Shown here: positions 7,484 through 53,633 of the stretch, in pieces
How positions within the stretch are numbered: position 1 is the first letter of the stretch
How the letters are laid out: each line of letters begins with the position of its first letter
DNA from: Rhizobium sp. ACO-34A
GTDB lineage: Bacteria > Pseudomonadota > Alphaproteobacteria > Rhizobiales > Rhizobiaceae
Length of the DNA: 64,000 nt
Direction: 5' to 3'
NCBI GenBank assembly: GCA_002600635.1
Contig: CP021371.1
Location: 3,599,001-3,663,000, forward strand
Program-made: the position numbers and the translations under genes
The notes under the pieces: generated by a model
Database searches by the model: none
Told to the model about the DNA's origin: nothing
Seen by the model: the letters and a program-made list of their open reading frames with translations, nothing else

Positions 7484-8336
7484 GCCTTTCGGCTATGACT
7501 ACATGCGCAACGCCATTTTCGTCAGCGCGCTTGTCGGCGGCGTCTGCGGCTTTCTATCCTCCTATCTGATGCTCAAGGGCTGGTCGCTAATCGGCGACGC
7601 CCTCTCCCACGCCATCGTGCCGGGCGTCGCCGGAGCCTACATGCTCGGCCTGCCCTTCGCCTTCGGCGCTTTCATCTCCGGCGGTCTTGCGGCGGCGGCC
7701 ATGCTTTTCCTCAACCAGCGAACCCGCCTCAAGGAAGACGCCATCATCGGCCTGATCTTCACTTCCTTCTTCGGGCTTGGCCTGTTCATGGTCTCGCTCT
7801 CTCCCGTTTCGGTGAACATCCAGACCATCGTGCTCGGCAACATCCTCGCCATCACACCGGCCGATACGCTGCAGCTCGTCATCATCGGCGGCGTCAGCCT
7901 CGTCGTCCTGACGGCCAAGTGGAAGGACTTCATGGTCGCCTTCTTCGATGAGAACCACGCCCGCTCGATCGGCCTCAGGCCGGATCTGCTGAAAGTGATC
8001 TTCTTCACACTGCTCGCCGGCTCCACCGTCGCCGCTCTCCAGACAGTCGGCGCCTTCCTCGTGATCGCCATGGTGGTGACGCCGGGCGCGACCGCCTACC
8101 TGCTCACCGACCGCTTCCAGCGCCTCATCGTAATGGCCTTCGTAATTGGCGCGGCCACGAGCTTTATCGGCGCATACATCAGCTATTTCCTCGACGGAGC
8201 GACCGGCGGCGTCATCGTCGTGCTGCAAACCGCAATCTTCCTGACCGCTTTCGTCTTCGCGCCGAAGCATGGCCTTCTTGCCGCCCGCCGCCGCGCCCGG
8301 GCGGCACTCGCAGAACCATTGGAGGCAGCGCAGTGA
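7464..8336 (+). CDS. sitC: Mn(II)/Fe(II) ABC transporter, permease 1
   Basis: 290-residue ABC-3 family inner-membrane permease with many hydrophobic segments, e.g. [20 protein letters not shown] and [20 protein letters not shown]. The true start is the ATG at 7464 ([11 protein letters not shown]); a longer in-frame extension is just overlap with the end of sitB. The family hallmark [14 protein letters not shown] is present. Its stop overlaps the GTG of sitD. It pairs with sitD to form the transmembrane channel. Confidence 0.9.
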
Positions 8337-47845: not shown

Positions 47846-48127
47846 GTCATCCTCCCTTTCAGATATGTCGGGTGGACGCTAACAAAGATCGGAAACCGGC
47901 GGGTATTATCACAATACTACAGAAGCGGATTTTGACGCCGGCCTTCGCCGCAGGGCAAGAATGCCGAAATAACAAGCATCAATTAGAATGCATACAAACT
48001 GAGCAAAAACACTCGATTGCCGCTCCCGTTTGCTCAATGCGCAGTCTCCATTTTTGGTCACCACGACGAACGCCCCCGAAACTGCCGGAAAATCCGATCT
48101 GGCACGGAACATGCAGAGAAGAGTTGG
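47846..48127. other. Gap upstream of the riboswitch
   Basis: 282 bp between the DJ-1 start and the first aptamer. No open frame of note and no recognised repeat. AT-rich near 47880-48010. It should contain the promoter for the leader RNA, but no convincing -35/-10 pair was found. Confidence 0.4.
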
Positions 48128-48169
48128 CGAGTAGAAGCGGTCAGGGCCCGGTGCCTGGGACATTGCTCG
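48128..48169 (+). promoter_or_regulatory. Candidate NMT1-motif (xanthine) riboswitch aptamer, copy 1
   Basis: P1 CGAG/CTCG (48128-48131, 48166-48169) flanks the conserved strands TAGAAGCGGTCA (48132-48143) and GGGACATTG (48157-48165). A short P2 (GGGC/GCCT) lies in between. Its conserved strands equal those of copy 2 at 50945. It lies in the 459-bp leader of the ABC binding-protein gene (NMT1 family), which is the gene type that gave the RNA class its name. A GCAA-tetraloop hairpin (48249-48269) and an alternative GGGCCC (48275-48280) complementary to the P2 strand precede the ribosome site at 48290. Confidence 0.7.
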
Positions 48170-48304
48170 AGTGAGAGACCTTTTGCTTTTCGCCGGACAA
48201 ATGCCGCTTCACATCGTATCGCCCAATCCCAACGAACCATAGAGCCCCCTGGCGTCGCAAGGCGCAGGATCGAGGGCCCCGTGAGCACAGGAGAAAAATC
48301 AGGA

Positions 48305-49300
48305 ATGACCAAAGCCCGCTTTGCCAAACGTTTTTACGTCTCGCTTTTCGCAACGCTGCTTGCCGGCTCCGCTTCGGCTGCCGACACCGTGGTCTTCCAG
48401 CTCGACTGGCTGCCGGGCGGCGACAAGGCGCCGATCTACGTCTGCATCGACAGGGGCTTCTGCGCCGAGGAAGGCATCGAGATCAAGGTCGAGCCGGGCC
48501 GCGGCTCCACCGAAGCGATCACCCGTCTGGCCGCCGGCACCTCCGACGTCGGCTCCGCGGATATCGGCGCGCTGATGGCCGCTCAGGTTACTGAAAAGGT
48601 TGCCGTCACCGGTATCATGTCGATCTTCAACAAGGGACCGCACGCCTTCTTCGCGCTGAAGGACAGCGGTATCTCCAAGATCGAGGACGTCAAGGGCAAG
48701 AAGGTCGCCACGTCGCCCTTCACCTCCTCCAACGTCTTCCTGCCGCTCGTCCTCGCCGACAAGGGCCTTGCAGAATCCGACATCACCCTGACCAAGGCCG
48801 ATCCCGGCGCTCTCGGCCCGATGCTGATGACCGGCGCGACCGACGTCATCATCGCATGGATGACCAACGTCTCGATCTTCAACGGTCAGGCCGCACAGGC
48901 CGGCAAGGAACTGGAGATCATGCCGTGGTACGCCGCCGGCCTCGATCTCTATTCCGCCTCGTTGCTGGCCTCCGACAAGTTCATCACCGAGCGCCCGGAT
49001 GTCGCCAAGCGTTTCATCAAGGCCTTCAAGAAGTCGATGGAATACGTGAAGGCCAATCCGGACGAATCCGCCGTTTCGGTCAACAAGATCGTGCCTGAAC
49101 TGCCGGTCGACGTGGTCAAGGGCGCGATCAAGGACACCATGGTCCTCGAATTCAACGAAGTCACGGACAAGGATGGCCTCGGCGTCTTCGAAACCGCGCG
49201 TCTTGCAGAAACCTGGAAGCGCGTGGCCGCCTCCCAGAAGCTCGATCTGGCCGCCCTCGACCCGGAAAAGAGCGTCAACCGCAGCTTCCTCGCCGAGTAA
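48305..49300 (+). CDS. NMT1/SsuA-family ABC transporter, periplasmic binding protein
   Basis: 331 residues with a signal peptide (MTKARFAKRFYVSLFATLLA, cleavage near GSASA|AD). The mature protein follows the NMT1/ThiY/SsuA pattern: FQLDWLPGGDKAPIYVCIDR, GRGSTEAITRLAAGTSDVGS, VATSPFTSSNVFLP. Such proteins bind small sulfonates, pyrimidines or purines. The aptamer upstream suggests a purine such as xanthine or urate. The ATG at 48305 has AGGAG 10 nt upstream. It starts the ABC operon that runs to 50883. Confidence 0.86.
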   Translation: MTKARFAKRFYVSLFATLLAGSASAADTVVFQLDWLPGGDKAPIYVCIDRGFCAEEGIEIKVEPGRGSTEAITRLAAGTSDVGSADIGALMAAQVTEKVAVTGIMSIFNKGPHAFFALKDSGISKIEDVKGKKVATSPFTSSNVFLPLVLADKGLAESDITLTKADPGALGPMLMTGATDVIIAWMTNVSIFNGQAAQAGKELEIMPWYAAGLDLYSASLLASDKFITERPDVAKRFIKAFKKSMEYVKANPDESAVSVNKIVPELPVDVVKGAIKDTMVLEFNEVTDKDGLGVFETARLAETWKRVAASQKLDLAALDPEKSVNRSFLAE

Positions 49301-49309
49301 GCATCGCGG

Positions 49310-50092
49310 ATGGCCGGCTCCATTTCTCCCCCCGCATTGTCGTTCAAGGGCATGGGGCAGGTCTACCAGACCTCCTCAGGCCCGCTCGAGGCGCTGCGGG
49401 CGGTGACCTTCGACGTGAGCCGCCACCAGTTCGTGGCGGTTCTCGGTCCCTCGGGCTGCGGCAAATCCACCCTGCTGCGCTCGATCGCCGGTCTGCTTCC
49501 GCCGACTTCCGGCTCGGTCGACGTGTTCGGCCATACCGTCACCGAACCGCGTGACGATGTCGGCATCGTCTTCCAGAAGCCGACGCTCCTGCCCTGGGCA
49601 TCCATCGAGGACAATGTCGTCTTCCCGATCAGGCACAAGACCGGGCGTGTTTCGGCGGAAGATCGCGTTCGCGCCCGCGAACTGTTGGCCAAGGTCGGCC
49701 TGGCCGGCTTCGAGAAGCGCCTTCCCTCGGAACTTTCCGGCGGCATGCAGCAGCGTGTCGGCATTGCCCGCGCCCTGCACCTCAACCCCGATATCCTGCT
49801 GATGGACGAGCCCTTCTCCGCGCTCGATGCCCTGACCCGCGAGGAAATGGGTTTCGAACTCCTGCGCATCTGGGAATCCCAGCCCAAGACCGTTCTTTTC
49901 ATCACCCACTCGATCAGCGAGGCCGTGCTGCTGGCAGACCGGGTTCTGGTGATGAGCGGCCGGCCCGGCACGGTCGCGGAAGACCTTGCCATCGACATCC
50001 CGCGTCCGCGCGGCGTCGAGACCACGGGGTCGAAGGCGATGCAGGATTACTCGGGCTATCTGCGCAATCTCCTTTTGAAGCGGGAGGCCTGA
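49310..50092 (+). CDS. NMT1-type ABC transporter, ATP-binding protein
   Basis: 260 residues, SsuB/TauB family. Walker A GPSGCGKST, Q-loop QKPTLLPW, signature LSGGMQQR, Walker B LLMDEPFSALD and switch THS are intact. It starts 9 bp after the binding-protein gene and ends 2 bp before the permease GTG, so all three are one transcription unit. Drives import through the adjacent permease. Confidence 0.9.
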   Translation: MAGSISPPALSFKGMGQVYQTSSGPLEALRAVTFDVSRHQFVAVLGPSGCGKSTLLRSIAGLLPPTSGSVDVFGHTVTEPRDDVGIVFQKPTLLPWASIEDNVVFPIRHKTGRVSAEDRVRARELLAKVGLAGFEKRLPSELSGGMQQRVGIARALHLNPDILLMDEPFSALDALTREEMGFELLRIWESQPKTVLFITHSISEAVLLADRVLVMSGRPGTVAEDLAIDIPRPRGVETTGSKAMQDYSGYLRNLLLKREA

Positions 50093-50094
50093 CC

Positions 50095-50883
50095 GTGAAC
50101 AACCAGACCGCTTTCCGCCGATTTCTGGACACCCCCGGCGTATTGCCGGCCGGAACCTTCCTGCTGATCCTGATCCTCTGGGAAGCCTCGACCCGCGTCT
50201 TCGCCATCCCGTCCTTCATCCTGCCCGCCCCTTCGCGCATCGTGCTGGAGGGCTTCGGCGACATCGAGGTCAAGCGCTGGATCGAGCATGTCTGGGCAAC
50301 CCTGCGCGTCGCGCTGATCGGCTATTTCCTGTCGATCGCCATCGCCCTTCCCATCGCCGTCATGCTGACCCGCTCCAAGATGCTGTCGGACGCGCTCTAT
50401 CCGATCCTCGTGGTGGTCCAATCCACTCCGATCGTCGCGGTTGCGCCGATCATCATCGTGGTTCTGGGCTCGGGCGATGCCCCGCGCATCGTCATCACCT
50501 GCCTCATCACCTTCTTCCCGCTGGTCGTTTCGACGGCCACCGGCCTGATGGCGACGCCACCAGAACTGATCGAGCTGTCGAAGAGCCTCAAGGCGCCGAC
50601 CCACCGGGAAATCACCCAGATCCGGCTGCCCTATGCGATCCCCTATATCTTCTCGGCACTGAAGATTTCGGTGACGCTCGCCGTCATCGGTGCGGTGGTT
50701 GCCGAGTTCGTCGCCGCGGAAAAGGGTATCGGCTACTTCATCCAGTTCTCGACGTCCTTCTTCAAGCTGCCCCAGGCCTGGGCGGGTCTTTCGGTGCTGG
50801 TGCTGATGTCGCTCATCCTGTTCCAGCTCGTCTCGCTGGTACAGCGCGTGTTCTTCCCCTGGAGCATTCCCAAGGGGCAATAA
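50095..50883 (+). CDS. NMT1-type ABC transporter, permease
   Basis: 262-residue SsuC/TauC-type permease with six or so transmembrane segments. The EAA loop is seen as ELSKSLKAPTHREITQIRLP. The GTG at 50095 starts 2 bp after the ATPase stop. The second aptamer follows at 50945, in the 168-bp gap before the oxygenase gene, so transport and oxidation can be tuned separately. Confidence 0.88.
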   Translation: MNNQTAFRRFLDTPGVLPAGTFLLILILWEASTRVFAIPSFILPAPSRIVLEGFGDIEVKRWIEHVWATLRVALIGYFLSIAIALPIAVMLTRSKMLSDALYPILVVVQSTPIVAVAPIIIVVLGSGDAPRIVITCLITFFPLVVSTATGLMATPPELIELSKSLKAPTHREITQIRLPYAIPYIFSALKISVTLAVIGAVVAEFVAAEKGIGYFIQFSTSFFKLPQAWAGLSVLVLMSLILFQLVSLVQRVFFPWSIPKGQ

Positions 50884-50944
50884 GCAGCCGGTAAATGCCG
50901 GCCATGAAATTCCGTCCCCGGCCGCTCGGCCGGAGACGGAGGCA

Positions 50945-51001
50945 GGAGTAGAAGCAGTCAAGCGCCCTCACGGATTTCTTCGGGCGCCGGGTCATTGCTC
51001 C
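50945..51001 (+). promoter_or_regulatory. Candidate NMT1-motif (xanthine) riboswitch aptamer, copy 2
   Basis: P1 GGAG/CTCC (50945-50948, 50998-51001, extendable by an A-T pair) encloses TAGAAGCAGTCA (50949-50960) and CGGGTCATTG (50988-50997). P2 is a perfect 6-bp stem GCGCCC/GGGCGC (50962-50967, 50982-50987) with a 14-nt loop. Downstream, a hairpin at 51011-51029 competes with an 11-bp anti-aptamer pairing (50983-50993 with 51020-51030, three G-U pairs) that would break P2 and the core. The oxygenase start is at 51052. Confidence 0.75.
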
Positions 51002-51051
51002 TTTTGGAAGGCGCCGGACGGTCCGGCGTCGAAACCTCTATGGAGACTGAA

Positions 51052-52047
51052 ATGAGTGCTAATTCCTATGGCCTTGCAGAACTGAACAAGGAAACCACCG
51101 TTGGCGGCGAGGGCCTCGAGGCCGAGCGCGAAATCCGCCAGATCGACATGAGCGATTTCGAGAACCGCAAGGCCGAGATCGCCGACCAGCTCTGGGAAGC
51201 CGCAACCACGGTCGGTTTCTTCCAGCTCGTCAACCATGGCATCCCGCAGGAACAGATCGACGAGGCCTTCGAATACGAAGCCCGCTTCTTCGACCTGCCG
51301 GCCGAGGTGAAGAGCAAGTATCCGCTGCTCAAGGGCACCAATTCCGGCTGGGAATACAAGGCTCAGGTGCGGCCCTCCACCGGCACCGCCGACCAGAAGG
51401 AAAGCTACCAGATCACCCTTCCCCGCATGAGCGTGCTGTGGCCGAGCGAGGAGGAACTGCCGGATTTCAAGGAAAAGATGCTGGCCTTCGAGCGCGTCAA
51501 CTGGGAACTCGGCATGAAGGTTCTCTCCTGCTTCGCCCTGAAGCTCGGCTTCCCGGAAGATTTCTTCACCACGCTGCATGAACCCTCGTCGAAGGAATAC
51601 CAGAGCACGCTGCGGCTCCTGCATTACCTGCCGCTCGTCGATCCTAAGCCGGAAGACTACAAGGCATGGCGCGCCGGTGCCCACACCGACTACGATTGCC
51701 TGACGCTGCTCCACCAGCGCCCCGGTCAGGGCGGCCTGCAGGTATGCCCCGGCCATGAATATGAGAGCCAGGCCTGGACCTCGATCCCGCCGCTGCCGGG
51801 CGTCGTTACCTGCAACATCGGCGACATGCTGATGCGCTGGAGCGACGACAAGCTGCAGTCGACGCTCCACCGGGTCCGCATGCCTCGTCCGGACGAGCCG
51901 CACGGCCCGCGCTACTCGCTCGCCTTCTTCTGCCAGGCCAATTGCGACGCCATGATCCAGGGCCCGGAAAAGAAGTACGAACCGATGACCGCCAACGACT
52001 ACCTGCAGATGCGCATCGCCGCCAACTTCGGCGGCAAGACCATGTGA
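51052..52047 (+). CDS. 2-oxoglutarate/Fe(II)-dependent oxygenase (isopenicillin N synthase superfamily)
   Basis: 331 residues. An N-terminal DIOX_N-type region (RQIDMSDFENRKAEIADQLW, FFQLVNHGIP) precedes the jelly roll. Iron ligands H211 and D213 (AHTDYD) and H273 (TLHRVRMP), plus the 2OG-binding R287-x-S289 (PRYSL), are all present. It would hydroxylate or oxidise a small substrate using O2 and 2-oxoglutarate. The start at 51052 follows GGAG; an ATG at 51040 overlaps that site and is rejected. The upstream aptamer makes a purine such as xanthine a plausible substrate, but other members of the family act on amino acids and hormones, so this is a hypothesis. Confidence 0.84.
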   Translation: MSANSYGLAELNKETTVGGEGLEAEREIRQIDMSDFENRKAEIADQLWEAATTVGFFQLVNHGIPQEQIDEAFEYEARFFDLPAEVKSKYPLLKGTNSGWEYKAQVRPSTGTADQKESYQITLPRMSVLWPSEEELPDFKEKMLAFERVNWELGMKVLSCFALKLGFPEDFFTTLHEPSSKEYQSTLRLLHYLPLVDPKPEDYKAWRAGAHTDYDCLTLLHQRPGQGGLQVCPGHEYESQAWTSIPPLPGVVTCNIGDMLMRWSDDKLQSTLHRVRMPRPDEPHGPRYSLAFFCQANCDAMIQGPEKKYEPMTANDYLQMRIAANFGGKTM

Positions 52048-52053
52048 CGGCCT

Positions 52054-52095
52054 GGGGCATTCGATCTCTCTTCTACAGGAGAGGTCGAATGCCCC
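52054..52095 (+). terminator. Strong hairpin after the oxygenase gene
   Basis: GGGGCATTCGA / TCGAATGCCCC (11 perfect pairs) with an inner CTCTC/GAGAG stem, starting 7 bp after the stop. It probably ends the transcript, though there is no long T-tract. Confidence 0.7.
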
Positions 52096-52122
52096 ACTCC
52101 TTCCTCCTTGCAATAGGTGACT

Positions 52123-52549
52123 TGCCCCTCACCCTGACCTGACCGGGGTCGAGCCGCGTGTCTCGACCCGTCCTTCGGCCCCTGCAAGCGGGGAGAGGGA
52201 ACGGAAACCTCGCGAAAACTCTCTCCACCAAGAAAGGAGGTGAAGGCTCGCAGCAAGCTTCCCTTCCCTACGGACCGATGGCCTTCTCTCTTTACTGGGG
52301 GACGACAGACGGAAAAGACGGGAAACATTGCGGCAGGCCGCCTCTCGCGACATCCCGACAGACAGGTCTCACTTTGCGACCGGCAGACAGCGCAGGCAAA
52401 AACGTCGCCGCACATCCCTTCTCCCCGCCTGCGGGGGTGAGGCGCGGTCCGCGAAGCGAAGCAATCGATCCTGTGAATCGATTGCAGCGACGAACGCCTT
52501 GAGCCAAAGCGAAAGGCCGGCCGGGTGGCGGTAGCCGGATGAGGGGCAA
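52123..52549. repeat. Extended rhizobial intergenic repeat region, copy e
   Basis: Bounded by GCCCCTCACCCTGACCTGAC and GGATGAGGGGC. It contains GGGTCGAG...CTCGACCC, TCTCCCCGCCTGCGGGGG and ATCGATCCTGTGAATCGATT palindromes. It occupies most of the 590-bp gap 52048-52637. The middle (about 52200-52400) is unlike copies a-c and may be an insertion into the element. No gene is seen. Confidence 0.6.
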
Positions 52550-52637
52550 CGCCGCCAGCCTCCGAAAAACCTCGCCCCTTGCCTCCCCGCCGTCTTCCGC
52601 CTAGCGTCCGCTCAGCCGATCACAGGAAGAATTCTCC

Positions 52638-53633
52638 GTGCCCACCCTCACCAATCTGCTTACCGACATCGACGGCGTGTCCGTCGGTCATAGCACCGAT
52701 CTTGCCCTCGGCTCCGGCGTCACGGCCATCGTCTTCGACGAGCCGGCGGTCGCATCCGGCACCGTGCTCGGCGGCGCGCCGGGCGGACGGGAAACGGCGC
52801 TGCTCGATCCATCGATGGTGGTGGAGGCCGTCGATGCGCTGGTGCTTTCCGGCGGTTCCGCTTTCGGTCTCGATGCCGCGGGCGGCGTGCAGGCGGGCCT
52901 GCGCTCCATCGGACGCGGTTTTCAGGTCGGCAACACCAGGGTGCCGATCGTGCCGCAGGCGATCCTCATGGACCTTTTGAACGGCGGCAACAAGGACTGG
53001 GGCCTGCAATCGCCCTATCGCGACATGGGCTACGAAGCCTTCAAGGCCGCAGCGAAAGGCCCGTTCGGACTCGGCACGGTGGGTGCCGGCACGGGCGCGA
53101 CGACGGCAACGTTCAAGGGCGGCCTCGGCTCGGCCAGCGCGGAAACATCGAGCGGCCACCGGATCGCGGCCATCGTCGCCGTCAATGCCATGGGTTCGGC
53201 CACCATCGGCACCGGCCCGCATTTCTGGTCGGCCCCGTTCGAACAGAACGGCGAGTTCGGCGGCAACGGCATGCCGCAGAACTTCACCGCATCCGACATC
53301 GCGCTGAAGGCGAAGGGCGTTAATCTCACCGCCACCACCATCGGCGCGGTCGTCACCGATGCCGTGCTCACCAAGGCGCAGGCCCATCGCCTGTCGATCA
53401 TGGCGCATGACGGCCTTGCCCGGGCGGTCCTTCCCGCGCATCTTCCGGCCGATGGCGACACCATCTTTGCCGCAGCGACGAAGGCCAGGCCGCTCTCCGA
53501 TCTCGCCAGTTTCATGGAGCTATGCCATCTGGCGACCATTGTCATGGCCCGCGCCATCGCCCGCGGCGTCTACGAGGCAACCGCGCTTCCGGTGGAAAAT
53601 GCCCAACCCGCATGGCGCGACCGCTTCGGCTGA
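52638..53633 (+). CDS. P1-family peptidase (DmpA/beta-peptidyl aminopeptidase superfamily)
   Basis: 331 residues. The N-terminal part (GVSVGHSTDLALGSGVTAIV, GGAPGGRETALLDPS) and LSGGSAFGLDAAGGVQ are typical of the P1/DmpA fold of self-cleaving Ntn-like hydrolases that act on D-amino acid or beta-peptides. Family members are processed internally before a Ser/Thr nucleophile. I cannot place that residue for certain; the AGTGATTATFKG region or NFTASD are candidates. GTG start at 52638, with AGGAAG upstream. Separated from the oxygenase by a repeat-filled gap, so a functional link is uncertain. Confidence 0.8.
   Translation: MPTLTNLLTDIDGVSVGHSTDLALGSGVTAIVFDEPAVASGTVLGGAPGGRETALLDPSMVVEAVDALVLSGGSAFGLDAAGGVQAGLRSIGRGFQVGNTRVPIVPQAILMDLLNGGNKDWGLQSPYRDMGYEAFKAAAKGPFGLGTVGAGTGATTATFKGGLGSASAETSSGHRIAAIVAVNAMGSATIGTGPHFWSAPFEQNGEFGGNGMPQNFTASDIALKAKGVNLTATTIGAVVTDAVLTKAQAHRLSIMAHDGLARAVLPAHLPADGDTIFAAATKARPLSDLASFMELCHLATIVMARAIARGVYEATALPVENAQPAWRDRFG

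Follow-up and report, generated by a model that had tools for sequence, protein, structure and literature searches.

A putative purine-responsive import-and-oxidation locus in Rhizobium sp. ACO-34A with two xanthine riboswitches and a predicted ON switch at the oxygenase gene

The stretch of DNA analysed here, called the window, comprises 64,000 nt of Rhizobium sp. ACO-34A (contig CP021371.1, positions 3,599,001 to 3,663,000 of the forward strand). It contains a locus in which the genes of an ABC importer are preceded by one xanthine riboswitch (aptamer I) and the gene of a DIOX_N and 2OG-FeII_Oxy protein, a putative 2-oxoglutarate (2OG)/Fe(II) oxygenase here named OXY, is preceded by another (aptamer II). 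On balance we lean towards reading this as a purine-responsive import-and-oxidation locus with two separate riboswitches, of which the copy at the oxygenase gene is predicted from sequence and folding models to be an ON switch. A first-pass annotation of the same letters had recognised both aptamers and was silent on the sign of regulation; the sequence suggests ON for the oxygenase copy.

Two members of the xanthine riboswitch class in one locus

A cmscan search of the whole window returned exactly two RNA matches at gathering level, both to the Xanthine family RF03054, for which the cut-off is 36 bits. Aptamer I (48124-48173, + strand) scored 51.6 bits (E = 1.5e-8) and aptamer II (50941-51005, + strand) 47.8 bits (E = 1.7e-7), with E-values calculated for 64 kb and all families; no third RF03054 copy was reported in the 6.28 Mb genome. 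The first-pass annotation had described the motifs CGAG...CTCG (48128-48169) and GGAG...CTCC (50945-51001), had taken them for the NMT1-motif or xanthine class, and had proposed this covariance-model search; both the motifs and the class membership are confirmed. As it had also noted, the stems differ in the manner of a structured RNA: P1 of aptamer I (CGAG/CUCG type, 48128-48133 with 48164-48169) and P1 of aptamer II (GGAG/CUCC type, 50945-50950 with 50996-51001) are distinguished by one compensated closing pair, C-G versus G-C, and the P2b stems differ. P1, P2a, P2b and the conserved J1/J2 nucleotides are present in both copies, and aptamer II has a U14.U37 mismatch within P2a, as have many of its oxygenase-side relatives. 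Read from the letters, the ligand contacts or supports A6, A9, G10, C11, G35, A39 and U40 in the numbering of the published crystal structure of the class (PMC8266621) are likewise present in both copies.

For comparison, 80 named OXY loci (L numbers below) were collected by a profile search built on ten OXY proteins linked to riboswitches; they are the best 80 of 519 and not a random sample. An aptamer on the OXY side was found in 76 of the 80 loci and a further copy on the side of the substrate-binding protein (SBP) in 47, and the four loci without an OXY-side match were L050, L078 (at a contig edge), L084 and L085. In 134 aptamer matches from relatives (127 distinct), 91.8% of the cells remain paired in this structure. 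Cells with both sides changed numbered 208, compared with 71.3 in shuffled and at most 73 in slid controls, counts that lean towards this structure since the alignment was fitted to it. The folding energy of each aptamer alone was ordinary (z of -0.45 and +0.39), so that the evidence lies in the covariance model and the covariation and not in stability. Together with the position conserved in 76 of 80 loci, this evidence upholds the earlier view of a structured RNA instead of a DNA duplication. The two RNAs are members of the xanthine riboswitch class, and ligand binding is predicted for both.

The P1 strand of the oxygenase aptamer as predicted anti-Shine-Dalgarno

Aptamer II is placed between the permease gene and the OXY gene (51052-52047, + strand) and ends 46 nt upstream of the OXY start. 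The OXY Shine-Dalgarno (SD) sequence GGAG, as assigned from the letters, lies at 51042-51045, 6 nt upstream of the ATG at 51052. The 3′ strand of P1 at 50998-51001 reads CUCC and complements this SD core, so that P1 formation and SD masking exclude each other and the strand is predicted to act as anti-SD whenever it is released from P1. In the free ensemble of the window's leader the SD was paired to the P1 3′ region with a mean probability of 0.83 (to CUCC in the minimum free energy fold), which dropped to 0.00 when P1 was favoured. Over the 68 loci with an SD at most 50 nt from P1, the modelled SD was unpaired at 0.49 with P1 favoured, 0.28 in the free state and 0.24 with P1 penalised, and its accessibility rose by more than 0.3 in 23 loci and fell by more than 0.3 in none. 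The mean change of 0.24 was reduced to 0.08 by shuffling of the linkers, and to 0.09 when the closing pair was swapped in silico (67 leaders).

The proposed mechanism would thus start, when neither xanthine nor urate is bound, from CUCC of aptamer II paired with GGAG of the OXY SD and a blocked initiation; the ligand would stabilise P1, withdraw CUCC, free the SD and allow OXY to be translated. Translational ON control is known from the add adenine riboswitch. There, too, the start region is masked by one strand of a helix unless the ligand stabilises that helix; aptamer and ligand are different ones, and the ON control in the window is a prediction.

The letters of P1 follow this arrangement in the relatives. 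On the SBP side (n = 48) the 3′ strand ends in CUCG in 28 copies, in CUCA in 18 and is gapped in 2, and CUCC was found in none of the 48, whereas the nearest OXY-side copies have CUCC in 67 of 76 loci. With the SD at most 50 nt from P1, 66 of 68 copies have GGAG/CUCC, all 66 with GGAG as the 5′ strand; with a more distant SD, CUCC is present in one of eight (L062). Inclusion of 17 more OXY rows from the window, plasmids and genomes of other classes gave CUCC in 74 of 76 copies with a near SD and in 1 of 17 with a far SD; in the further plasmid loci the counts are 5 of 5 near and 0 of 2 far, and two OXY loci from other classes of the phylum again have GGAG/CUCC, one of them with the 7 bp CUCCAAU/AUUGGAG. 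A closing pair of P1 is not demanded by the class, as 27 of 126 distinct rows have no standard pair there; in OXY-side copies with a near SD it is G-C with G on the 5′ side. The single GGAG/CUCC copy with a far SD, L062, has a repeat-like stretch (cgtcattgcgaggag...cgcaatgacg; 7855-8000) between aptamer and OXY start.

A second mark of the OXY-side copies is found within the aptamer. Of 78 regular OXY-side copies, 45 have U at position 37, and in each of these nucleotide 12 is A, U or C; U37 is present in none of the 48 SBP- or amidohydrolase-side copies, all of which have G12. In the window, aptamer I is of the G12/A37 and aptamer II of the A12/U37 subtype. The exchange G12A alone is reported to weaken binding 7-fold, and the text seen of the same crystal-structure account (PMC8266621) contains no U37 variant. 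We therefore put forward, tentatively and with the arguments on both sides nearly in balance, that the alphaproteobacterial OXY-side copies are a distinct subtype, with a GGAG/CUCC P1 and often a non-G12 nucleotide together with U37, in which a P1 strand serves as anti-SD and xanthine or urate would switch OXY on.

Observations that weigh against the ON reading

Several results speak against the pattern or against its interpretation. Two near-SD copies, L058 and L064, are exceptions to CUCC. Seven loci have an extra OXY-side copy upstream, and five of these copies, all from Roseomonas, end in CUCC at a distance of more than 240 nt from OXY; on the 5′ side they read CGAG or CGGG, which breaks the closing pair. 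Taken as a rule about the 3′ letters by themselves, the pattern is weakened by these far copies, and the odds given to it are slightly lower. Moreover, five near copies before other genes in genomes of other classes are not CUCC; they precede Rieske oxygenases (L113, L132, L137), a cytidine-deaminase-like gene (L127) and an SBP gene (L134), so a nearby SD is not by itself enough to bring about CUCC.

The counts are further affected by descent. In L053, L054 and L057 the far OXY-side copy is similar to the upstream member of the pair in L055, and far copies may thus be importer-type paralogues and not changed OXY-type aptamers; the contrast between near and far copies is less strong than the plain counts imply. 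Both aptamer kinds have the appearance of ancient paralogues maintained by descent, and since they are inherited in this way the loci are not independent observations. Supported branches give four independent contrasts, with a mean of 2.9 agreeing and 0.6 opposing, which is not significant. Likewise, the nucleotides flanking CUCC and GGAG did not covary (20 of 64 complementary, 19.8 expected), and an anti-SD pairing extended beyond the 4-bp core was discarded on these counts.

With regard to the folding, complementarity of CUCC to the SD by itself accounts for part of the gain in SD accessibility. The distance from the end of P1 to the SD downstream is only 7-15 nt in some loci, and a ligand-bound helix so close to it could also hinder the ribosome. 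Pairing of GCAGUC in the aptamer with ACUGC after the SD was seen in the window's fold and in few lineages; as a general feature it was rejected, with a mean of 2.44 Watson-Crick pairs against 2.26 for shuffled and 2.50 for swapped sequences. Finally, the sole reporter assay found described for the class, on the copy of Hydrogenophaga intermedia, indicated OFF behaviour (PMC7373994).

Tandem arrangements upstream of OXY, with aptamer starts 192-332 nt apart, were found in L052, L055, L056, L060, L061, L076 and L079. Five of the seven loci belong to Roseomonas, and the downstream copy of L076 is weak (E = 0.084).

Substrate of the oxygenase and alternative explanations

The best PDB match of the OXY profile is thymine 7-hydroxylase (5c3p, E = 6e-40); with the single OXY sequence the ethylene/succinate-forming enzyme scores slightly better. 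The HxD...H and RxS motifs for Fe(II) and 2OG are present and align with those of thymine 7-hydroxylase, and H211, D213, H273, R287 and S289 are invariant in ten aligned sequences. Thymine 7-hydroxylase acts on the free base, which is sandwiched by F292 and Y217 and hydrogen-bonded by N87, E122 and N294 (PMC4787775). According to the residue mapping, read from the printed profile alignment, OXY keeps the metal and 2OG residues and the sandwiching aromatics (F293 and Y/F214) but has Q120 and Q295 in place of E122 and N294 and no Asn aligned at N87. The aromatic positions recur in another aligned family member and are therefore not specific. The profile match, the amidohydrolase neighbours of many OXY loci and a nucleobase:cation symporter gene 13 nt downstream of OXY on a Streptomyces plasmid point to a nucleobase, and the prediction favoured here is a free nucleobase other than thymine; OXY would probably oxidise such a base, with a purine close to xanthine or urate as the likeliest case. 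The solved relatives of the SBP include the pyrimidine-related THI5/THI13 and a formyl-aminopyrimidine binder.

The importer genes are usual in OXY loci. Many loci add an amidohydrolase of the PRK12393 family (cut-off 543; the two tested scored 600 and 588 bits, and 385 and 402 with the 8-oxoguanine deaminase model, whose cut-off of 532 they do not reach) or a LysR gene with an amidohydrolase of the cytosine-deaminase family (cut-off 403; two tested proteins scored 611 and 594 bits). A second 2OG oxygenase, assigned by similarity, is present in some. Such neighbours would suit a salvage route in which OXY and its amidohydrolase partners process modified purines (oxidised, N-methylated or deaminated) and xanthine or urate is the product that is sensed; a feeder pathway of this kind would also fit the coexistence with a full xanthine dehydrogenase route described below. 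We consider salvage plausible, although the case for it falls short of even, as product sensing suits an OFF switch better than the predicted ON switch.

Control of the opposite sign is what the literature would lead one to expect. The class, discovered as the NMT1 motif, binds xanthine, urate and 8-azaxanthine (Yu and Breaker, PMC7373994), and the same paper reports that it represses genes making oxidised purines and views the genes as acting upstream of xanthine. Both copies in the window might accordingly be ordinary OFF switches, with the ligand shutting down importer and oxygenase and thereby stopping an overproduction of xanthine or urate. The H. intermedia result, obtained by comparison of mutant and wild-type reporters and attributed to control of the ribosome binding site (PMC7373994), agrees with this, and so may some OXY leaders of other classes with a far SD and a downstream competitor, which could give OFF. 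However, in the window and in 66 of 68 near leaders the strand able to mask the SD belongs to P1 itself, being its 3′ strand, so that it is unavailable for masking once the ligand is bound. In addition, binding was tested on a tauA copy of Serratia plymuthica and the reporter work was done on an H. intermedia copy (PMC7373994), neither of them, it seems, an alphaproteobacterial OXY leader. We regard OFF control of both copies as rather unlikely. The competitor just mentioned was observed in L115 and, by eye, in L119 and L121, all from genomes of other classes: the OXY-side aptamers far from the SD carry GCUCUUGAAG, which with the downstream CUUCAAGAGC forms a 10-bp competitor of P1 that lies outside the SD, an alternative platform by which the sign could be reversed.

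The first-pass annotation had further proposed that the locus oxidises xanthine or urate without a molybdenum xanthine dehydrogenase. This part is not supported. Elsewhere in the genome one cluster encodes XdhA, XdhB (1371.9 bits, cut-off 849.5), XdhC, a PuuD-type urate oxidase and a guanine deaminase, and neither riboswitch lies in it. In a survey for which 50 of the 80 OXY loci were chosen and 49 genomes searched, XdhB was above cut-off in 47 of 49, the exceptions being a Tardiphaga and a Bradyrhizobium (L088, L104), compared with 175 of 297 genomes drawn evenly from the order; all ten riboswitch-carrying genomes of that draw had a best XdhB match with E = 0. PF06181 urate oxidase was found in 42 of 50 OXY genomes. 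A replacement pathway was rejected as stated on these grounds; the locus is, as judged from gene content, an addition to the classical xanthine dehydrogenase route, and OXY would work alongside the molybdenum enzyme and not in its place. XanA, an oxygenase of fungi, is of the TauD type. A molybdenum-free oxidation of xanthine after the fashion of XanA or of HpxDE appears improbable to us, as the dehydrogenase genes are present and OXY is of the DIOX_N/2OG-FeII_Oxy and not the TauD type, even though an oxygenase under a xanthine sensor and the proximity of OXY to a PDR/VanB oxidoreductase and a LysR gene in one Rahnella and one Klebsiella plasmid speak in its favour. The idea of oxygenase-based oxidation of hypoxanthine or xanthine is shared with HpxDE of Klebsiella (PMC7373994), as is that neighbouring oxidoreductase in the two enterobacterial plasmids; in contrast, no Rieske or PDR gene is among the genes of the window locus. 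The weakest alternative, a repeat due to chance or duplication and without RNA function, has the ordinary folding energies on its side and can be dismissed in view of the E-values, the covariation and the conserved position.

Importer-side aptamer and further features of the locus

Aptamer I ends 132 nt upstream of the start of the first of three importer genes on the + strand, assigned by domain matches: an NMT1/THI5-like SBP (PF09084, 48305-49300), an ABC transporter ATPase (PF00005, 49310-50092) and a BPD_transp_1 permease (PF00528, 50095-50883). The claim that importer and oxygenase each have their own aptamer copy is thereby borne out. Folding of 47 importer-side leaders gave no directional effect on the SD of the SBP gene itself (mean -0.01; above 0.2 in three, below -0.2 in four), by which an action on this SD was set aside, and none is predicted for aptamer I in the window. 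Over 50 importer-side leaders (48 SBP and 2 amidohydrolase), a perfect helix of at least 6 bp between the P1 flank and the downstream start region was found in 16, with 3.0 expected. In SBP leaders such as those of L037, L038, L043, L066, L067, L097, L100, L102 and L110 the P1 3′ strand with its flank is complementary over 6-8 bp to a downstream segment that often holds AUG or GUG (CGGCAU/AUGCCG, UCAUCAA/UUGAUGA). The nearest relatives of the window, L033 and L034, pair over 3-4 bp only, and no start-region claim is therefore made for aptamer I.

A weak candidate leader open reading frame (ORF) of 13 codons (MPLHIVSPNPNEP) may be located at 48201-48242 (+ strand); in the near relative L034 the same ATG opens a frame without an early stop. 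In Rhizobium, Agrobacterium and some Rhodobacterales an ORF of about 60-67 codons lies between the importer-side aptamer and the SBP gene (L146:1625-1828, L140 from 2123, L139 from 2126, L086, L087, L090, L103, L107). Its shared pattern is H-x-C-x2-C followed later by R-x-C-A, with Y for C in L146. The annotation of L146 lists this ORF as a hypothetical protein, and a 6-bp segment overlapping its SD was seen by eye to complement the P1 3′ strand (CUCGAC/GUCGAG); the frame of L139 lacks a stop at the equivalent place.

Between aptamer II and the OXY SD a strong hairpin of 9 bp is predicted (51010-51030, + strand, -16.7 kcal/mol). It is not followed by a U run and was not called a terminator, and scans for terminators and sigma-70 promoters over 47850-52660 remained at chance level. 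Downstream of OXY a gene of peptidase family S58 (52638-53633) was observed, which has the same place in 4 of 80 loci (L033-L036).

The nearest named OXY loci, among the best 80 of 519, are those of Ciceribacter sichuanensis and Rhizobium cremeum (98% protein identity). The class is sparse: the riboswitch was found in 10 of the 297 genomes from the order and in 18 of the 397 from the phylum, counts obtained with stricter filters by which weak matches are lost. An OXY relative of 60% identity together with a nucleobase symporter on an actinobacterial plasmid (L145:4450-6811) extends the gene beyond the Proteobacteria; the aptamer model R1 gave no match there.

Relation to the published class and implications

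The window locus is a member of a published kind, and the class and its gene partners were already known: the main partners named are NMT1/THI5, tauA and pcbC-like dioxygenases, with DIOX_N among others, and adjacent copies were described in H. intermedia (PMC7373994). The importer and the dioxygenase of the window correspond to these partners. A later study dedicated to the oxygenase copy was not found by title in the open-licence PMC literature. What the present sequences suggest as new is the pattern of P1 CUCC versus the OXY SD and, possibly as a surprise, the ON sign of the oxygenase copy. The OXY-side copies thus differ from the published picture of RF03054 in their GGAG/CUCC P1 with a 3′ strand complementary to the OXY SD, in the frequent non-G12 with U37, and in a predicted ON as against the published OFF for another representative.

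Should the oxygenase copy be an ON switch, one RNA class would give opposite control by moving one closing base pair into the ribosome-binding region. The uncharacterised OXY would then be a prime candidate for a purine-consuming enzyme, with the sensed purine or a close relative of it as substrate. According to the account of the discoverers, no gene degrading oxidised purines was seen among the targets of the class (PMC7373994), and their puzzle of why the class activates no such gene would find an answer in this locus.

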